Shown in pieces: positions 10,910 through 27,287 of a stretch of 28,017 bases of DNA. The notes beneath the pieces were generated by a model. The model did no database searches and was not told the DNA's origin. It was given only the letters and a program-made list of their open reading frames with translations. Position 1 is the stretch's first letter, and every line of letters starts with the position of its first letter. A program made the position numbers and the translations under genes. The stretch is from a virus. The DNA is taken from positions 1 to 28,017 of the IMG/VR virus record IMGVR_UViG_3300031669_000189; one strand, written 5' to 3'.

Positions 10910-12165
10910 ATAAAAACAGATACCTCTCTTCCGGCCGGTAATAATAATATTTCGTTGCCGTGCAAGTCGTTAGTTTCTATAAAAAAATCAATTGTACCAT
11001 TATCCAAATTCCCATAACTATTAGCACAAACTGTTAAAATACTTGTTTGAGATTCAAGAATAATAATCTTTTCTATTTTTAGATTTGTTGAATTATTAAG
11101 CAGCGATCTAACCGCAGTAAAAAGAGAATTAAATAATTGCGGGTAAGTTGTCGACTGGCTAATATATTGCAAGTCTATCGGTGAGGAATTAAATAAAACT
11201 TGCTGATTATCAAAACTATTTGTCATTAGTTCAAACATGGAAATTATTGAACCAATTACAAGAACAGAATCATTCCTGTTCTGAAGTTCTCCCGATACGG
11301 AAGAAAGTATTGCCCCAGCAACAGCGGAGCCGGCAGCGATTTCATTCGTTAAAGCAGTATTTTTTGATTCAATTGATGAATCGGGAATTACAAAATTTAA
11401 TAACTGATTTAGAAGATCGTTATATATAGAGATTCTTACTTTTATGCTATCGATAGCATAAACCGGCACTTGAATATAATTTATCAATTGACCTACCATG
11501 GCGACAGGATCAAAAATTGGAGAATTAATCGTATTTAAAAAAGCGGCTTCTATGCTGGAGAAAAGATTAAAAATATCTTCATCGTTTTTTGCTAATTCAG
11601 ATAATGAAGATTTTGATAATGAAAAAATATTTCTTGCAGCTGTAATTATCGATTGCCTTGTTTCTGCGGTTGAAATATCAACGCTATCCTCAAAGCCTGA
11701 AATTGATGATTGATTAAAATTATCTATATTCGCGATTACCTCATTGGCACTTTGGGCCTGCGAAATTGTTGCCGACTCTCCGCTGTCTTTTTGCCACTGC
11801 GTTGATACCTGGGTCATATTACCGTTTCCAACCGGGTCGACGGTTTCAGTAGCAGATAACAATTGAAGTTTTTGAAATCCCCAGACTGGATGTCTTACAT
11901 CCCATGGCCCGGACTCGGCGAATAACGTTTGAACAAACTGTGCCCCGACAATGTCATGATCCTGCCCGGTAAAAAATAAATCAAGCGGGAAAATAAAATC
12001 ATCAGATTTTAAATCCTGAGTAACAGTTCCATTGACGTCTGGATAAGAAAATATTCCTACTTTTTTATTAAACTGTCTAGTTGCCGATCTCCAGATAGCA
12101 TTAAACACCTGTCCACTCGGGGATGTCAAAACTACAAATTCGGAAATTCTATCTTTCCAACTCAA
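10906..12165 (-). CDS. Mu gpN-like tail/DNA circularisation protein
   Basis: The N-terminal 110 residues show the DNA_circ_N pattern: MSWKDRI, SPSGQVFNAIW, FSYPDVNG, QDLKSDDFIF, FTGQDHD, FAESGPWDVRHPVWGFQKLQLL. In Mu, gpN is a tail and baseplate component once described as a DNA circularisation protein. The middle is low in recognisable motifs, mainly helical. The start is TTG at 12165, in a TTGA overlap with the tape-measure stop, with GGGGGTG upstream; no ATG lies near enough to keep the conserved N-terminus. Length 419 is slightly below Mu gpN (about 490). Confidence 0.88.
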   Translation of the reverse strand: MSWKDRISEFVVLTSPSGQVFNAIWRSATRQFNKKVGIFSYPDVNGTVTQDLKSDDFIFPLDLFFTGQDHDIVGAQFVQTLFAESGPWDVRHPVWGFQKLQLLSATETVDPVGNGNMTQVSTQWQKDSGESATISQAQSANEVIANIDNFNQSSISGFEDSVDISTAETRQSIITAARNIFSLSKSSLSELAKNDEDIFNLFSSIEAAFLNTINSPIFDPVAMVGQLINYIQVPVYAIDSIKVRISIYNDLLNQLLNFVIPDSSIESKNTALTNEIAAGSAVAGAILSSVSGELQNRNDSVLVIGSIISMFELMTNSFDNQQVLFNSSPIDLQYISQSTTYPQLFNSLFTAVRSLLNNSTNLKIEKIIILESQTSILTVCANSYGNLDNGTIDFFIETNDLHGNEILLLPAGREVSVFI

Positions 12166-14420
12166 GGATTCACCCCCTGCAATTTTAAATTTATACCGGG
12201 GGCCGGGTTATCATTTGATAATTTTGAACCAACTGGAGCCCCATTAATATCGAGGGTTACCCTGGATTCATTTATATTTTTCCCACCGTTTTCGCCTGCT
12301 GGAGATTCTGGCAAAATTGGCTTTGCAGCTTCGGCCGATACAAATTCCCTGACAGCATTTATTCCTTGGACTGCGCTCTCAAGTCCGGCCACGTCGATTT
12401 TTAGGAATTTCCCCACCTTGGCAACAAATCCAATTATGCCAGCAGCCATCCTGCCAAAAATATTTAAAATGATATCAGCAAATCCAAAAAATACTTTTTT
12501 TATAAATCCTATCGATGCAAAAAATCCAGTTTTTAATGCCTCCCATGTTATGTTTGCTGCCGTAGTTATTCCACCCCATAGCTTAACAAAGAATTCCGAT
12601 AGTGGTTTCCAGTGTTTTATTATCAATGCAGGGATTGCTATCATTGGAGCAAACATAACTCCAGCCGTGGCGATAAAAGGATTGTCAAGCAATTTAGAAA
12701 ACCAATCCCACGCTAATTTTAAAGCCCCAACAACTTTGTGCCAATTTTGAACTAATGCAACGATAGCCACAACCAGAATTCCAACTGCTGCAATTATTAA
12801 CCCGATAGGATTAGCTGTTAATATAACATTTAATACAATTTGAATCGCTGCCCATATTTTAGTTGCCAGAATAATTGCCCCAATAGCAATGGCTAAAGGT
12901 TTTAAAAACTTTACAATTGGGGTTATCGCTCTTATAAATACAGTAGCTACTTTGATTATTAAATTAAACCCTTTCAATAATCCATTTAGCATTCCACCCG
13001 CTTTTTTCCCACTCGGTATAAATCCAGAAAAAATAACTTTAGCTAAATTCAAAACAGCTTTTCCTAAATCAATAATTGATTTAAATATTTTTTTAACTAT
13101 AGGAATAGTTCCTTTAATTATTTTAATGAATCCGAAAAAACCTTTCTTTAATGGGTCGAAGTTTATTTTTTTTACAGCGGTAACAATAAATGATAAAAAC
13201 TTTCTTATAGGTTCAAAGTTTATTTTTCTTACGATATCGGTAACAAAAGAAATTGCATTACTGATATCGTTTTTAAAAACGTCCATAAACTTAAAGCCCA
13301 ATTCAATTGATGCCGATTTTAACGATGCTAATCTATTTTGAATTGATGTTCTCATTCTTTCGGCTGTTTTCTGCGCCGTTCCGCCTGCGTTAAGAAGCTC
13401 ATCCCGAAAGTTCCTTATTGATTTTGTGCCAGAGTCCAAAAGAACATTTATGCCAGTAACAGAACGCGCACCAAATACTGTCGCAAGTGCTGCCGTTTTT
13501 TGAGCCGTTCCCATCCCGATAAGTCCTTTTTCAAAATCCGAAAGGATATCAACGACATCTCTAAAATTACCTTGCGCATCTTGCGTCCTGATATTCATTT
13601 TGTTAAGAACATCTCCGGCCTCTGCGGTCGGACTTGCAAGCCTTAACATAATATTTCTTAACATGGTCCCAGATTCTGCGCCCTTCACCCCGCTATTAGC
13701 CATTACTCCGGCAAGTGCATTAAAACTTTCAAGGCTCTGTCCGGCAGCCGTAAACGCAGAAGCGCCTTTTTTTACCGACTCAAAAAGTGTTATTAAATCA
13801 GTATTGGAACTATTCATAGTTTTAGCCATGACATCATTTAGGCGGTTATAATTATTTAAAAGCTTGCCAGTATCATTAGTCATTAATCCAAATGCGCCTA
13901 AAGAGTCACTAGCAATATCGGTTGCGGTAGCCAAATCAGAATTTGCCAGTGTGGCCAGGTCGGCAGTCGGCCTTAACGATGTCATGGCCTGGTCGGCATT
14001 AAATCCAGCCATGGCTAAAAATTCCAAACCTGCCCCCGCCTCTGCCGCAGTAAACTCAACTGCTGCACCAACATCGCGGGCAGTTTTTTCTAATGCCAGT
14101 AATGTGTCTTGCCCTTCTTTTGTGTTTAGGTTAAGCCCTTTAAACTTTGACGATGCGGAAGTTATTGATTGATCAAGATCAACAAATTCCTGGCCGACTG
14201 CACGAATGCCACTTATCAGAAGAGAAATTCCTTTTTGAATAATGTTAGCTGATAGTATTCCTTTTACGATATTTCCAAATCCTGCCGCCCCCCTTGAAGC
14301 TTTTGAAAATGAGCTTCTAGAGCTTTCCCCGAATTTGTTAACGCCTTTTGTCATTAACCCAAATTTTGAGGAAACTCCGTCTTTAGCAGTAAAACCTAAC
14401 GCAATCGCAAAATCAGGCAT
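12162..14420 (-). CDS. Tail tape-measure protein (TP901 family)
   Basis: At 752 residues this is the largest gene of the window. The TP901-type core is clear: TAAEAGAGLEFLAMAGFN at about 124-141, preceded by ARDVGAAVEF and followed by SDLATATDIASDSLGAFGL. The protein sets tail length and is ejected with DNA. After about 370 it is very hydrophobic, with several possible membrane helices (about 480-560), as usual for this class. A 19-residue unit (KINFEP, KINFDP) occurs twice around 390-425. Its ATG overlaps the end of the frameshifted chaperone extension. Confidence 0.95.
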   Translation of the reverse strand: MPDFAIALGFTAKDGVSSKFGLMTKGVNKFGESSRSSFSKASRGAAGFGNIVKGILSANIIQKGISLLISGIRAVGQEFVDLDQSITSASSKFKGLNLNTKEGQDTLLALEKTARDVGAAVEFTAAEAGAGLEFLAMAGFNADQAMTSLRPTADLATLANSDLATATDIASDSLGAFGLMTNDTGKLLNNYNRLNDVMAKTMNSSNTDLITLFESVKKGASAFTAAGQSLESFNALAGVMANSGVKGAESGTMLRNIMLRLASPTAEAGDVLNKMNIRTQDAQGNFRDVVDILSDFEKGLIGMGTAQKTAALATVFGARSVTGINVLLDSGTKSIRNFRDELLNAGGTAQKTAERMRTSIQNRLASLKSASIELGFKFMDVFKNDISNAISFVTDIVRKINFEPIRKFLSFIVTAVKKINFDPLKKGFFGFIKIIKGTIPIVKKIFKSIIDLGKAVLNLAKVIFSGFIPSGKKAGGMLNGLLKGFNLIIKVATVFIRAITPIVKFLKPLAIAIGAIILATKIWAAIQIVLNVILTANPIGLIIAAVGILVVAIVALVQNWHKVVGALKLAWDWFSKLLDNPFIATAGVMFAPMIAIPALIIKHWKPLSEFFVKLWGGITTAANITWEALKTGFFASIGFIKKVFFGFADIILNIFGRMAAGIIGFVAKVGKFLKIDVAGLESAVQGINAVREFVSAEAAKPILPESPAGENGGKNINESRVTLDINGAPVGSKLSNDNPAPGINLKLQGVNP

Positions 14421-14984
14421 TCTCGCTATCCCTTATTATTTCATGCCACGAATTCCAGTATTTCAACCAGTACCAATCCATCTTTTGAATCTCCGACGGG
14501 GAAACCTTCCGATAAAAAAGATTCCCCATCATCTGATTTAGGCGGTCGGCTATACCGCCGTTAAGAAAAAAAGCGCTATCCCTTCCATGTACATAAGGTC
14601 TGCAGTTTTAATTTCCGACACAACAGGTTCGCCCATTCCGCATAAAACACCCATTAGTGAATACACACGCTTATGAATTATTGTTTCCCCGTGGCCGTCC
14701 ATTCCTTTTTTTGCTTCACCACTTAATGTTTTATATGTCAGCTCTTTGATTGAAGCGTCTCCACCAAGTGGAGTTTTTAATTTTTGTGTAATGCTTCCGT
14801 CGCTGTTTATCATTAGCCTACCAAGCATGATCCCTTTTTCTATTTTATCAATTTGAGCCTGCACATTTTTTTTAGTTGTTTCATCCGATATATTATCAAT
14901 ATCAAAATCATAACAATCAAAAAAAATATCAAGTTGTTTTTTTGCTGTCTCTTTCGAAATAATATTTTTTTTAAACATGCTCAT
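14413..14984 (-). CDS. Tail assembly chaperone long form via -1 frameshift, 190 aa
   Basis: The long form uses 140 codons of the zero frame up to the slippery site at 14565-14571, then 50 codons in the -1 frame to TGA at 14413-14415. The extension begins LNGGIADRLNQMMG and continues with YRKVSPSEIQKMDWYWLKYW, so it is rich in tryptophan and tyrosine, as usual for the long chaperone of contractile-tail phages (P2 E+E', Mu-like pairs). It ends three bases inside the tape-measure gene it helps to fold. The extension has no start codon with a binding site of its own, which supports a frameshift. Confidence 0.88.
14541..14571 (-). promoter_or_regulatory. Programmed -1 frameshift signal
   Basis: Read on the - strand the heptamer T TTT TTC (14571-14565) sits in the correct frame for the X XXY YYZ rule. 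A 5-base spacer (14564-14560) is followed by GGCGGT (14559-14554), a 7-base loop (14553-14547) and ACCGCC (14546-14541), a perfect 6-bp stem. The zero-frame stop TAG lies in the loop. The hepta-T tract sits four codons before the stop. Confidence 0.88.
14550..14984 (-). CDS. Tail assembly chaperone, short form, 144 aa
   Basis: The zero-frame product stops at TAG (14550-14552). The protein is acidic with a helical N-terminus and resembles the short chaperone by position (between tube and tape measure) and by size. Motif-level family identity is not clear. The binding site AAGGAG lies 6 bases before the ATG at 14984; a second ATG two codons later could also be used. It would coat the hydrophobic tape measure together with the long form. 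Confidence 0.82.
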   Translation of the reverse strand: MSMFKKNIISKETAKKQLDIFFDCYDFDIDNISDETTKKNVQAQIDKIEKGIMLGRLMINSDGSITQKLKTPLGGDASIKELTYKTLSGEAKKGMDGHGETIIHKRVYSLMGVLCGMGEPVVSEIKTADLMYMEGIALFFLTAV

Positions 14985-14993
14985 TTTATCTCC

Positions 14994-15380
14994 TTACAGT
15001 ATTGTCCAGCCATTGACTGGAGCCAAAGAAAAAGTAAATATCCCGTCCATAGTCGTGTAAGTTGAATCTCCGACAAACCAGGCAGACCCGATATATTTTA
15101 TTCCACCGGCTAATTCAAGAACCACGTTAACAGATTCCCCGGCATCAGCAATTCCTTTTAGGCGGTTGGAAACGATTGAATCGGCAACTCTTACCTGTAT
15201 ACCATCAAGCATTTCCGCCCTTCTTGTTTGTTTTAGAGTTGTACCACCACCTCCGCCATTTGGCAAGGCCTCATTATCATATGCAGCTACATTGACGGTG
15301 ATATCAGTATCATTTACAATCGCATAGGTGACACCGACCATTGTTATTTTTTTTAATGTTCCAACATTTCCTCTTCCCAT
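14994..15380 (-). CDS. Tail tube protein (Mu gpM-like)
   Basis: The 128-residue protein lies directly after the sheath, where the tube gene is found in Mu-like phages, and its beta-rich pattern (MVGVTYAIVNDTDITVN, VADSIVSNRLKGIADAGESVNVVLELAGGIKYIG) fits the family. The tube is the inner channel of the contractile tail. A run of five glycines (PNGGGGGTT at about 41-49) forms a flexible loop. The ATG is preceded by AAGGGGG. Confidence 0.88.
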   Translation of the reverse strand: MGRGNVGTLKKITMVGVTYAIVNDTDITVNVAAYDNEALPNGGGGGTTLKQTRRAEMLDGIQVRVADSIVSNRLKGIADAGESVNVVLELAGGIKYIGSAWFVGDSTYTTMDGIFTFSLAPVNGWTIL

Positions 15381-15391
15381 CGTATACCCCC

Positions 15392-16915
15392 TTATCCTAA
15401 TAGTACGGCGAAGCTGACATCAAATTGAACCTCGGTGTCAATAATTCTGCCATTGCCTGAAAACACACATTTAAAAATTATGTTTACCCTGTTGCTGTTA
15501 TCAGGGTCGAATTCTACCGTTGAGTTATCAATAGAAAATTGATCATCGGCAATCCAGGCCTTGCGTAAAAATGAACCGGCGAGTGCCACAATATCGGCAA
15601 TGAACGCGTCAAGATCGCGGGCCTTATCGTTCTCGCTTGCTTTTGATGCATCTAATACGAGTATTACTTGCTTCCACTCCTCACGAGCAAAATTAACCCT
15701 GAAAGCATTTGTTAGATTTTGTGCTTTGGAAATATTGACCATGTACCGGTAACCGTTGGAGCTGCTTGCAACTTCATCCGGATGGTAGAATGTTAGCATG
15801 TCCAAAAGATAAACAGCATTATTTTTTACAACCGTTGGAGAAATTCCGGAAAACTCGGCAAGGTTAAGATTGTTATAATCTCCCGTCCACCTGTCGGCTG
15901 GCAATCCAGGAATTACACCTGGAAGAATTTCATCAACATAATGTTGTGCCGCATTATTTGAATTTATACGGGCCATAATCCCGATTATGGTTGCGCCGAT
16001 TTCAGACGGATGATTAGGCGATCCTGGAACCGCTGCAATTCCGTTCGTGCGGTCAAGTTTTCTACCGTCACCGATTACGATCAAAGCGGAGAGCCCTGCC
16101 GTGTCTGCCTGCGTGTCACCGGTAATGCTGCGGAATGGTCGAAAAATTACTTTTTCATAAAGTCCGACAAAATCATTACCAGCCCCGTTATATGTAGACA
16201 GCGCATTGAGGGTTGCCGCCGCCTGTCCATATCCATGGATAATATCCGTAAACCACCGCTCATTATTTCCCGTTCCGTCGAGCGCATCCTGAATATCAGG
16301 ATCGGTAGCACCGCCGGTCATATCAGTGACAGCAAGAGAAACGCCGCCAGGCAGCTCTTCACCTTGCCCCCAGTTAAATGTTATTGTGATAAAATTACCA
16401 TAAGTTCCTTTTGTCTTGGCTGTAAACTCTGCGTCTTCCGTGGCGATTCCAATGGCAGCGGTGATTGGCAAGTTTACATTTGCATTAACGGCATCAACTA
16501 TATTCAACGCTATGTCGTCGTCAATCTCTCCGACAGCAACCGGGATTGTAACACGCTCACCGGCAATGTAAAGATTGATTGTGCCGGATACTGCTGTCGT
16601 AACCGTAACGGTAATTTTCCCAGTAGCGGCTACTGCCCCGCCTTCTTCCGGCTGTGGTATAATCCAGGTCTCAACTCCTCTTGATCCGCGCTGGGCGGCA
16701 AGGTGTAATCGGTGGAGCATCGATCCAAATCCATATTTGGCAGCTGTTTGTTGCGGGTCGATACTTTGAAGCGGGATATTATCGGCAATAACTTTTCCAG
16801 CTTCATACGTACCTATAATCCCAATCTTTCGCACAAGCTCTGTAGCTCCGCTAACAAACTGGACGTTTTTTATACTTGCCGCATTAACGGCAGCAATGCT
16901 ATTTGATGTTAGCAT
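15392..16915 (-). CDS. Contractile tail sheath (Mu gpL-like)
   Basis: At 507 residues it matches Mu gpL (495). The family pattern is evident: RKIGIIGTYEAGKV near the N-terminus, GFGSMLHRLHLAAQRG, WIIPQPEEGG, the inserted beta domain with GTINLYIAGERVTIPVAVG and DLPITA-type segment, and the C-terminal FKCVFSGNGRIIDTEVQFDVSF. The sheath contracts to drive the tube into the cell. The start overlaps the stop of the upstream gene by 7 bases. Confidence 0.95.
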   Translation of the reverse strand: MLTSNSIAAVNAASIKNVQFVSGATELVRKIGIIGTYEAGKVIADNIPLQSIDPQQTAAKYGFGSMLHRLHLAAQRGSRGVETWIIPQPEEGGAVAATGKITVTVTTAVSGTINLYIAGERVTIPVAVGEIDDDIALNIVDAVNANVNLPITAAIGIATEDAEFTAKTKGTYGNFITITFNWGQGEELPGGVSLAVTDMTGGATDPDIQDALDGTGNNERWFTDIIHGYGQAAATLNALSTYNGAGNDFVGLYEKVIFRPFRSITGDTQADTAGLSALIVIGDGRKLDRTNGIAAVPGSPNHPSEIGATIIGIMARINSNNAAQHYVDEILPGVIPGLPADRWTGDYNNLNLAEFSGISPTVVKNNAVYLLDMLTFYHPDEVASSSNGYRYMVNISKAQNLTNAFRVNFAREEWKQVILVLDASKASENDKARDLDAFIADIVALAGSFLRKAWIADDQFSIDNSTVEFDPDNSNRVNIIFKCVFSGNGRIIDTEVQFDVSFAVLLG

Positions 16916-24132: not shown

Positions 24133-26087
24133 TTTTCTACGATTTTTTTTAGTTGCTTTAGAATTAACGCCCTGTTTATTTTTTCAATTTGGACAGGATT
24201 AACTTTTCTTTTTTTGGCTGACTCAATTTGTTTTTTTACAATGTTGTCAATATAAACATCGGCCGCAGTTAAATTATAACCCCTCAAATCCAATGCTTCA
24301 TTTCGTCTGCCTGACGGCAAGTGGAATGTGCCATCAGAAAACCGCTCCTCCGCCCGGAGCATCTCAAAATAATTGTCTGGGTAGTCAGCCGGGAATTCAC
24401 AAAATCCGGGCCGCTGCTCGCCAATCTGATTTCTTAATATATTTAGATTTGCATAAATATTATTTTTATAATAATTTACAATCGACTGAATAACAATTAA
24501 TCCTGAGTTTACTTTTTTTTCATAATATTTTTTAACGTTCTTTAGCCTGACCAATCCTTCGATCGGATAAATTCCCTGGCCGCTTTGCGCGAACTGGTAA
24601 ACGGCTCCCTGGCTCTGGCCGTCTCCGCAGTCGATAACGGTAATGGCAACCTCAAATAATTTTCCGTCGTCTGTTTTGTAGGAAAAACCGCCATTTTCTA
24701 TGTGTTCTCGGAGCTTTTGCCATGCGCCGTCATTTGCATCATCTATTGAGCCGACTATCTGAAAATATGAAATTGACCAGGTTCGCCTTGATGATCCGTG
24801 CCCACAAACTTCAATCTCCAGACGTGGAGGATGTTTTTTGTCGCCCTTCTTTCCCCTCTGAACATCAACGGCAGCGGTAAGAAAAATGACACCTTCCGGA
24901 ATTGCGCCGGATGGGTAATTCCCGCGTAGTGCAATAAGCCTTTTGAGTTTTGGCCGATCACCCTGTTGATTCCACGGTTCGCCTAAAAATAAATTTACAA
25001 ATGTTTTTAAATCTTCCGGATCATCCTGCGAGTTGAGCCATTTTTCCACAAGATTGCTCCACGTGATTTGACCTGGTGGGGCATAAAAAGAATTTATGTG
25101 ATACGAGCGGGTTCTTTTTGATCTGCTTTTAGCGGTCGGCTTCCATTTCCCATTTTTAACTATTTGATGCTTTTCGGCTTCAGTTATTTTGCATCCGTTT
25201 TTTATGCAGCGATACCAGACTGAACCTTCCACAAGTATTCCGTCTTTTTTTTCGTATTGGATTCCAAATTTGTCACGCTCACCCCACTGCAAATATTGGG
25301 ACTCCCCGCAGTGCGGGCAGGGAAGAAAGAATTCTCGCTGGTCACCCATTTTGAAAAACTTATAGATAACGGATGTTTCCGCATCGGTCGGAGTTGAGTT
25401 GTCCCATTTTTTGGCCCGGTCCCCATATGCGTTAAGTCTGGCATCGGAGATTGCAAACGGGCTGCCCTGGCCTTTTATAATCACCGGAGCTTCATCGATT
25501 TCGTCGCGCCATAATCTTTTTACTGAGTCCTGTCTCAACTGGGGGCCGCTCCCCAAAGAAACCATGTTTAAAAATCCTGCTGGGTATTCTTTTTTTAATA
25601 TTGTGTCACCGGTTCGCCGGCTTTTTCTGTTTTCTGTTTGGGCCCTGATCAATGGACGCAATCCGCAGCTATCGATTGCAGGATTTAACCGCTTATTGCT
25701 CCAGGTATCGAGTAGATCACCGCTGCCGCTTGCGAACATTTGGTCGGCCGGATATTCTCCGATATGGTACACAATACAGCACTCCATTCCAAATGTCATT
25801 GCAACCTGGGCCGCTTTCATGCTTATTACCCATGTTATTGGAGAGTTTGCAGAAAAATTATCTATAATTTCAATTATCCACGGGGTGACAGTCAAATCTA
25901 CCAGGCCCGGGATAGGTGAATTTAAAGGCATTATTCTTTTATTTTGTATATACTCGGATACAAGCATCCCGGAAACCCGGTCAGGAATTGCACCTATTAA
26001 CTGATTTATTTTTTTTTTAATCGCATTTACGAATTGTGATTTAATTTTTAGCTTTTGATTTTCTACAATTTCAACTTCATAACTCAT
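24129..26087 (-). CDS. Terminase large subunit (GpA family)
   Basis: The 652-residue length matches lambda gpA (641). The ATPase part has a modified Walker A (SMKAAQVAMT, 89-98) and Walker B RLWRDEIDEA (191-200). A zinc-binding CPHC (257-260) with C294 and C299 is characteristic of the GpA family. The C-terminal nuclease domain carries LTAAVDVQRG and IDCGDGQ acidic motifs. The enzyme cuts concatemers and pumps DNA into the head. The start overlaps the methyltransferase stop (ATGA). Confidence 0.95.
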   Translation of the reverse strand: MSYEVEIVENQKLKIKSQFVNAIKKKINQLIGAIPDRVSGMLVSEYIQNKRIMPLNSPIPGLVDLTVTPWIIEIIDNFSANSPITWVISMKAAQVAMTFGMECCIVYHIGEYPADQMFASGSGDLLDTWSNKRLNPAIDSCGLRPLIRAQTENRKSRRTGDTILKKEYPAGFLNMVSLGSGPQLRQDSVKRLWRDEIDEAPVIIKGQGSPFAISDARLNAYGDRAKKWDNSTPTDAETSVIYKFFKMGDQREFFLPCPHCGESQYLQWGERDKFGIQYEKKDGILVEGSVWYRCIKNGCKITEAEKHQIVKNGKWKPTAKSRSKRTRSYHINSFYAPPGQITWSNLVEKWLNSQDDPEDLKTFVNLFLGEPWNQQGDRPKLKRLIALRGNYPSGAIPEGVIFLTAAVDVQRGKKGDKKHPPRLEIEVCGHGSSRRTWSISYFQIVGSIDDANDGAWQKLREHIENGGFSYKTDDGKLFEVAITVIDCGDGQSQGAVYQFAQSGQGIYPIEGLVRLKNVKKYYEKKVNSGLIVIQSIVNYYKNNIYANLNILRNQIGEQRPGFCEFPADYPDNYFEMLRAEERFSDGTFHLPSGRRNEALDLRGYNLTAADVYIDNIVKKQIESAKKRKVNPVQIEKINRALILKQLKKIVEN

Positions 26088-27112
26088 AAATCATGTTGCT
26101 CATAAATTATTTTTTGATATTCATCGGTATCAAATAGATCACCTTGTTGTAGATAAGTTTTATATCTTGCTTCCTGCATTTTCCAAAATATTATATTATT
26201 TTCGCATCCTCGAAATTCAAAGCCGAGTTTGTCGCAGACTATTCTTTCGTAGCAGCCCCCGGAAAACGGGCTAAATACTTTACAGCCGGGCGATCCTACC
26301 GCCTGGATTATTCTATGCACTAATGTTGGTGGTTTTTGTGTTGGGTGATTTATATTTCTTGTCAGGTTGGATTCCTGGATTGCCCTGATTACATCGTATT
26401 TTATTTCCTCAACAGGGTTGAATGGTCGGCGCAGCGATTCGTATTCAGACCGCAGCGATTCGTATTCTTTGCTAAAATATTTACCTGATTTTATTGATTG
26501 TAATTTTAAATAGATTTCTTCTGTTGGAAAACGATATTGACTATCTGAAAAATAATGACGACTAACAACATTTCTAGTATCAGTGGCACAGTTAATAAAA
26601 TCGTTAAATTGTTTTTCGTTTTTAAACCCATAATCTTTTTTTATCTTTTCTTTTTCTTCACGCATATATTTTTTAATAGGCTCAAATAAATTAGGATTAG
26701 AATAAATCATGGTTAACCCGGATTTATCGTCACCTTTATCATAAAAAAGAAATCTTTCGGTAATTGGTGCCCACCGTCTTAATGATTCAATGCTATTTCT
26801 TTTAGTTTGACATTCTATTTTTTCCCAAACACACACATTTAAAAGATTAAAGTATTTATCAAAAATTATTTGCTGATATGCAATATTAAGAGCATGCCCC
26901 CACAAAATTATTGAGCCATTATCTTTTAAAATCCTGTTACATTCGATGGCAAGTTTTTCGTGCATCTCTTGCCATTCTTCAAAAGACATTTGAAAATCAA
27001 AATCTCCCTTGATATTAAAATAAGGCGGATCAATATAAATAACATCAAAGTACTTATCTGGTATGGTTGCCATATACTCCATATTGTCAATCAAATAACA
27101 TTCATTAATCAA
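26084..27112 (-). CDS. DNA methyltransferase (N6-adenine or N4-cytosine, beta class)
   Basis: From the proposed TTG start at 27112 the product has 342 residues. Motif IV DPPY is at 28-31 (VIYIDPPYFN), followed by target-recognition sequence, then HPTQKP at about 256-261 and the SAM-binding motif FSPFSGGC at about 280-287. The order IV before I, with HPTQKP, marks the beta class; DPPY favours N6-adenine. The usual DPF.G.G of motif I is SPFSGG here. The frame extends to ATG 27235, but that overlaps most of the zinc-ribbon gene, while TTG 27112 has GGAGG eight bases upstream. It probably protects phage DNA from host restriction. Confidence 0.88.
   Translation of the reverse strand: MINECYLIDNMEYMATIPDKYFDVIYIDPPYFNIKGDFDFQMSFEEWQEMHEKLAIECNRILKDNGSIILWGHALNIAYQQIIFDKYFNLLNVCVWEKIECQTKRNSIESLRRWAPITERFLFYDKGDDKSGLTMIYSNPNLFEPIKKYMREEKEKIKKDYGFKNEKQFNDFINCATDTRNVVSRHYFSDSQYRFPTEEIYLKLQSIKSGKYFSKEYESLRSEYESLRRPFNPVEEIKYDVIRAIQESNLTRNINHPTQKPPTLVHRIIQAVGSPGCKVFSPFSGGCYERIVCDKLGFEFRGCENNIIFWKMQEARYKTYLQQGDLFDTDEYQKIIYEQHDL
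26431..26467 (-). repeat. 21-bp tandem duplication in the methyltransferase
   Basis: A 16-base identical core occurs at 26431-26446 and 26452-26467 with period 21, encoding EYESLRS and EYESLRR one after the other. It lies between the DPPY and HPTQKP motifs, in the variable target-recognition region, so the duplication is in frame and probably tolerated. Confidence 0.85.
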
Positions 27113-27287
27113 GATTTTCGCCTCCGGCACTTGCAAATAACCCCTCTTCGCATTGTGCGCATTTTTTTTGCTTTGGGTTGTAGCAATAACAACAGACAAG
27201 TTCATCGCATTTATTGCAGCGCTCAAAATATTCAAGTTCTAAAGGCTGTCTGCATAATGGACAAAATAAAATATTAATATCGTTCAT
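27105..27287 (-). CDS. Nine-cysteine zinc-binding protein, 60 aa
   Basis: Nine cysteines occur in 60 residues: CPLC (9-12), CNKC (24-27), CCYC (32-35) and CAQC (43-46, preceded by KK). This could hold two zinc ions in a RING-like or double-ribbon arrangement. The start overlaps the small-terminase stop (ATGA) with GAGGAG upstream. Its end overlaps the proposed methyltransferase start. No family is certain. Its place between terminase genes suggests help in packaging, methylation or host takeover, but that is inference. Confidence 0.78.
   Translation of the reverse strand: MNDINILFCPLCRQPLELEYFERCNKCDELVCCYCYNPKQKKCAQCEEGLFASAGGENLD

Follow-up and report, generated by a model that had tools for sequence, protein, structure and literature searches.

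The DNA stretch analyzed in this study, hereafter the window, comprises 28,017 bases of virus record IMGVR_UViG_3300031669_000189 and belongs to a phage with a contractile tail. It carries recognizable terminase and portal genes, genes for a head maturation protease and a major head protein, and, for the tail, sheath, tube, tape-measure, and baseplate hub and wedge genes. The structural genes are encoded on the minus strand. A DNA methyltransferase gene (26084-27235, minus strand; phrog_67, E 1.6e-35) lies between the genes of the small and large terminase subunits. The tail genes follow the order sheath, tube, chaperone gene, and tape measure, so that a single gene stands directly downstream of the tail tube gene and directly upstream of the tape-measure gene, whose ATG occupies 14420-14418. 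The features of this locus are listed in Table 1.

Table 1. Features of the tail chaperone locus in the window.
Feature	Coordinates	Strand	Basis
Tail sheath gene (contractile tail)	15392..16915	-	phrog_165, E 1.6e-78
Tail tube gene, directly upstream of the chaperone gene	14994..15380	-	phrog_4699, E 4.2e-7
Shine-Dalgarno sequence AAGGAG of the chaperone gene	14990..14995	-	read directly
Tail assembly chaperone, short (zero-frame) form, 144 aa	14550..14984	-	phrog_4648; relatives' profile; position upstream of the tape measure
Slippery heptamer T TTT TTC, in frame, inside a 7-T run	14565..14571	-	position and phase match T TTT TTN of homologues
5-nt spacer TTAAC	14560..14564	-	read directly
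6-bp stem-loop GGCGGT-ATAGCCG-ACCGCC, possible stimulator	14541..14559	-	stem GGCGGT/ACCGCC; loop ATAGCCG holds TAG
Zero-frame stop TAG, within the loop of the stem-loop	14550..14552	-	read directly
-1 frame extension, 50 codons and TGA; predicted long form 190 aa	14413..14565	-	relatives' extension profile matches the same frame
Tape-measure gene	12162..14420	-	PF10145, E 3.8e-40; phrog_1533, E 8.9e-66

At its end, the chaperone gene reads ...GCG CTT TTT TTC TTA ACG GCG GTA TAG in the zero frame. The heptamer, the spacer, and the stem with the zero-frame stop in its loop are present in the frame and spacing that a preliminary description of the locus had given. From the C of the heptamer, 50 codons are open in the -1 frame (14565-14416; LNGGIADRLNQMMGNLFYRKVSPSEIQKMDWYWLKYWNSWHEIIRDSENA, LNGG...ENA) up to the TGA at 14415-14413, and the predicted junction peptide of the long form is ...GIALFFLNGGIADR. 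The same description had counted the 50 codons correctly and placed their end three bases inside the tape-measure gene; the -1 stop in fact ends 8 nt inside that gene.

These elements were compared with shuffled sequences. Of the codon shuffles of the chaperone gene, 0.4% had an in-frame T TTT TTN within their last 24 nt, and of the dinucleotide shuffles of the extension, 4.8% had 50 open codons. A perfect 6-bp stem rich in G+C, placed 4-9 nt downstream, arose in 0.5% of shuffles, by a definition of the stem that was set after the stem had been seen. The folding energy downstream of the slip site was not unusual for the window (z -1.2 and z -0.9). The case for a frameshift made by the window alone is good but not final.

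The short form matched phrog_4648, a family listed as 'unknown function', over its full length (residues 6-141 on profile positions 3-143 of 143, E 2.7e-13). All seven relatives tested matched the same family, and a profile of the relatives' short forms, from which the window row had been left out, matched the window short form at E 8.5e-32. PF10109 (Phage_TAC_7, 'Phage tail assembly chaperone proteins, E, or 41 or 14', the type of P2 E and Mu gp41) matched neither the window protein nor the nine closest viral records. The homologue of SppYZU01 passes the gathering score of PF10109 (29.3 bits vs a cut-off of 25), and matches to it at E <= 1 were obtained for 13 of 42 homologues, the best at 3.5e-9. 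The model predicted for the short form (pLDDT 91) matched the 'Tape measure chaperone' of Burkholderia phage Mica (E 7.6e-4) and, more weakly, further tail assembly chaperones; among solved chaperone structures, no match was found by sequence or by fold. The homologue in Acinetobacter phage Scuro is annotated as a tail assembly chaperone. Both the place of the gene and its family fit a tail assembly chaperone, which the preliminary description had expected at this position, and on these comparisons phrog_4648 can be named a tail assembly chaperone family.

The tape-measure protein served as the route to relatives and led to 80 virus loci and several isolated phages, and the short-form profile then identified 65 locally distinct homologues (the window counted in) directly upstream of tape-measure genes. 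No direct relatives of the short protein were found by a pattern search of viral contigs or by tblastn in phages, and none by a sheath-based scan of viral contigs. A genome scan yielded 11 distant loci, only one of which, L093 on a Nitrospinota MAG contig, has a chaperone of this kind. The results revealed an in-frame T TTT TTN at most 22 nt from the stop in 45 of the 65 homologues. Among about 410 other ORFs of the same loci, such a heptamer near the stop was found in 3; two of these are duplicate chaperone genes, and the remaining ORF, in L082, may be a further gene of this kind.

A run of Ts might also be read differently, with RNA polymerase rather than the ribosome slipping on it and an added T leading into the -1 frame. 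The preliminary description had raised this for the 7-T run of the window, and runs of 7-8 Ts occur in 39 of the 65 homologues; the comparison nevertheless lends the proposal no support. The extension is kept in six relatives whose run has only six Ts (L003, L008, L052, L060, L039, and L044) and also in 16 homologues without any T6 run. Moreover, 45 of the 49 runs of six or more Ts share the one phase in which T TTT TTN is in frame, a phase that polymerase slippage does not need, although constraint on the zero-frame protein may contribute to this bias. Homopolymer runs of 7 are short for efficient transcriptional slippage. A transcriptional slippage gene, for which the run should be long enough and its phase unconstrained, was rejected as a candidate class. 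We consider polymerase slippage very unlikely; the phase bias and the six-T relatives fit ribosomal slippage, and transcriptional slippage is not needed to account for them.

In all 65 homologues, the -1 extension runs for 45-84 codons beyond the zero-frame stop. The open frame in 65 of 65 is weak evidence alone, because a -1 run of at least 45 codons also occurs in 43% of the 410 other ORFs. We therefore turn to its conservation as protein. An extension profile of 13 relatives, with the window row left out, was searched against 782 window ORFs and matched exactly the -1 ORF 14416-14607 (E 3.7e-22), and the motif QM.GNLFYR.V.P.EI..M.Y..LKYWN.WH is common to L013, L014, L015, L020, L022, and others. 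Between the window and five relatives, differences fell on the three -1 codon positions as 93/62/140 (p 1.5e-7), in pairs that all share the window and are thus not independent. Between close pairs elsewhere in the family, change in the -1 frame is mostly synonymous (e.g., 27 to 6, 21 to 6, and 22 to 6). Conservation as protein, codon-position bias, and synonymous change together place the extension under protein selection and argue strongly that it is translated.

The same evidence bears on whether heptamer, stem, and open -1 frame merely coincide without function. Taken singly, the elements are not extreme, as the shuffling of the open frame and the 43% of other ORFs indicate. The conservation of the -1 frame as protein, together with the heptamer in 45 of 65 homologues, refutes such a coincidence barring an error in the homologue set, and we regard its probability as negligible.

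The extension could alternatively be a separate small protein started inside it and not a fusion, for example from two adjacent in-frame ATG codons in the -1 frame of the window (MMGNLFYR..., approximately 37 aa). Separate CDSs are indeed annotated between the chaperone stop and the tape-measure start in VP16T (105 nt) and AeroV_348 (L007; 192 nt). However, no Shine-Dalgarno-like sequence precedes the extension ATG, which is missing at that place in L015, L016, L023, and L025, and conserved residues of the extension sit upstream of it. A separate start also leaves the conserved in-frame heptamer unexplained. An independently started protein is thus highly improbable, even more so than polymerase slippage. 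VP16C shares the annotated 105-nt CDS, and in other records a gap of 166-315 nt lies between the chaperone stop and the tape-measure start. Among the 45 heptamer-bearing homologues, we see no common route into the extension other than the shared slippery site.

The T TTT TTN heptamer appears not to be the sole solution in this chaperone family, because 20 of the 65 homologues have no in-frame T TTT TTN, the 16 without a T6 run included, and all of them keep the extension. Most homologues without the heptamer have CTT TTT or CTT TTA, that is, a U_UUN tetramer. Such a tetramer could let a single tRNA slip, as in insertion sequences and phages. In L002, L005, L006, and L012 (Vibrio phages VP16T, CKB-S1, 1.009.O, and VP16C), CTT TTT ATT stands in place of the heptamer. 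CTT TTA ATG GAT TAG or a close variant is found in L036, L040, L045, L047, L048, L062, and L093, which keep the -1 extension; the site of L048, TTA TTA ATG GAT TAG, has no U_UUN tetramer, and its extension is likewise kept. It is quite possible, if short of probable, that the conserved extension is reached by at least two slip signals in the family, namely T TTT TTN and, in approximately 16 members that include VP16, Scuro, and the group with CTT TTA ATG GAT TAG, a single-codon U_UUN slip or an unrecognized signal. If this is true, the family would be a natural series for the exchange of slip sites with the product kept, and the window would stand on its canonical side.

We further analyzed possible stimulators of slippage. 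A comparison of related phages, as the preliminary description had suggested, finds the extension and, in 45 of 65, the heptamer conserved; the sequence of the stem is not conserved among the relatives, and stems are enriched in the closest group. In the twelve heptamer-bearing loci of that group, which are not fully independent, downstream folding was better than in shuffles (combined p 1.5e-4), and over all 45 heptamer loci the tendency was small (mean z -0.5). The downstream stem is probably a stimulator that raises the efficiency of slippage. An upstream Shine-Dalgarno-like stimulator was unsupported as a family trait, since the site in the 45 loci was no better than the rest of the same gene. 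The window has a Shine-Dalgarno-like GGAAGGG 8 nt before its heptamer (14572-14590), and such sequences are not enriched over the family.

These findings strongly suggest that two forms of a tail assembly chaperone are made from the gene through a -1 ribosomal frameshift, a reading that we hold with high confidence. Its basis is the sequence anatomy, the conservation of heptamer and extension, the gene order, the family, and the predicted fold. The long form had already been judged very probable, and the homologues bear this judgment out: the heptamer is kept by 45 of them and the extension, conserved at the protein level, by all 65. We infer that slippage occurs in vivo, with an efficiency that the stem would help to set, and that the two forms divide the labor of tail assembly. 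The majority of ribosomes would terminate at the TAG and release the 144-aa protein, of the type of lambda gpG and P2 gpE. A minority, with the P and A sites on TTT TTC, would slip back one base, re-pair on TTT TTT, and continue for another 50 codons, giving a 190-aa fusion of the gpGT or gpE+E' type. By analogy with lambda, the common part may coat the tape-measure protein and the extension may recruit tail tube subunits.

The arrangement is the classical lambda G-GT or P2 E-E' arrangement in a divergent contractile-tail phage. P2 gpE and gpE+E', likewise produced by a -1 frameshift and belonging to PF10109, share with the window the contractile tail and the order sheath, tube, chaperone, and tape measure, and the P2 extension overlaps the tape-measure gene by 8 nt, as in the window. 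The P2 short form has 91 aa, compared with 144 aa here, and the window short form has no significant match of its own to the P2 E family, the link running through relatives. Homology of the extension with P2 E' is suggestive by eye and was not significant by hhalign (probability 9.8%) or hmmsearch (0.8 bits), a short pattern, PSE(I/L)..M, being all that is shared. Lambda differs in its flexible tail and in the greater length of its T part, annotated with 144 codons. The likeness to lambda gpG and gpGT lies in the genetic logic and the place upstream of the tape-measure gene (PMC5009743). The lambda frameshift mechanism and its breadth among long-tailed phages have been reviewed; both lambda proteins are absent from the virion, the short form binds the tape measure, and the extension binds the tube protein (PMC5009743). 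For P2-like prophages, T7C has been reported at the tail chaperone slip site (PMC3931495).

The phages of phrog_4648 (Vibrio VP16T/C, Shewanella SppYZU01 and SFCi1, Acinetobacter Scuro, and Aeromonas AeroV_348) resemble the window in their homologous short form, their gene order, and their conserved -1 extension, which is of a longer type with the motif Y.GLPD.RTL..EI.FFY.GL. Their gene annotation covers the short form alone, which is mostly called a hypothetical protein and in Scuro a tail assembly chaperone. The expectation that standard annotation would miss the long form thus holds for the relatives too, and none of the inspected isolated phages of the family has the long form annotated.

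The frameshift principle has been known since lambda and P2, and the arrangement described here is ordinary in kind and new as an annotation, present in a divergent, unannotated branch. A family filed under 'unknown function' would accordingly become one of tail assembly chaperones, in which programmed frameshifting is conserved.
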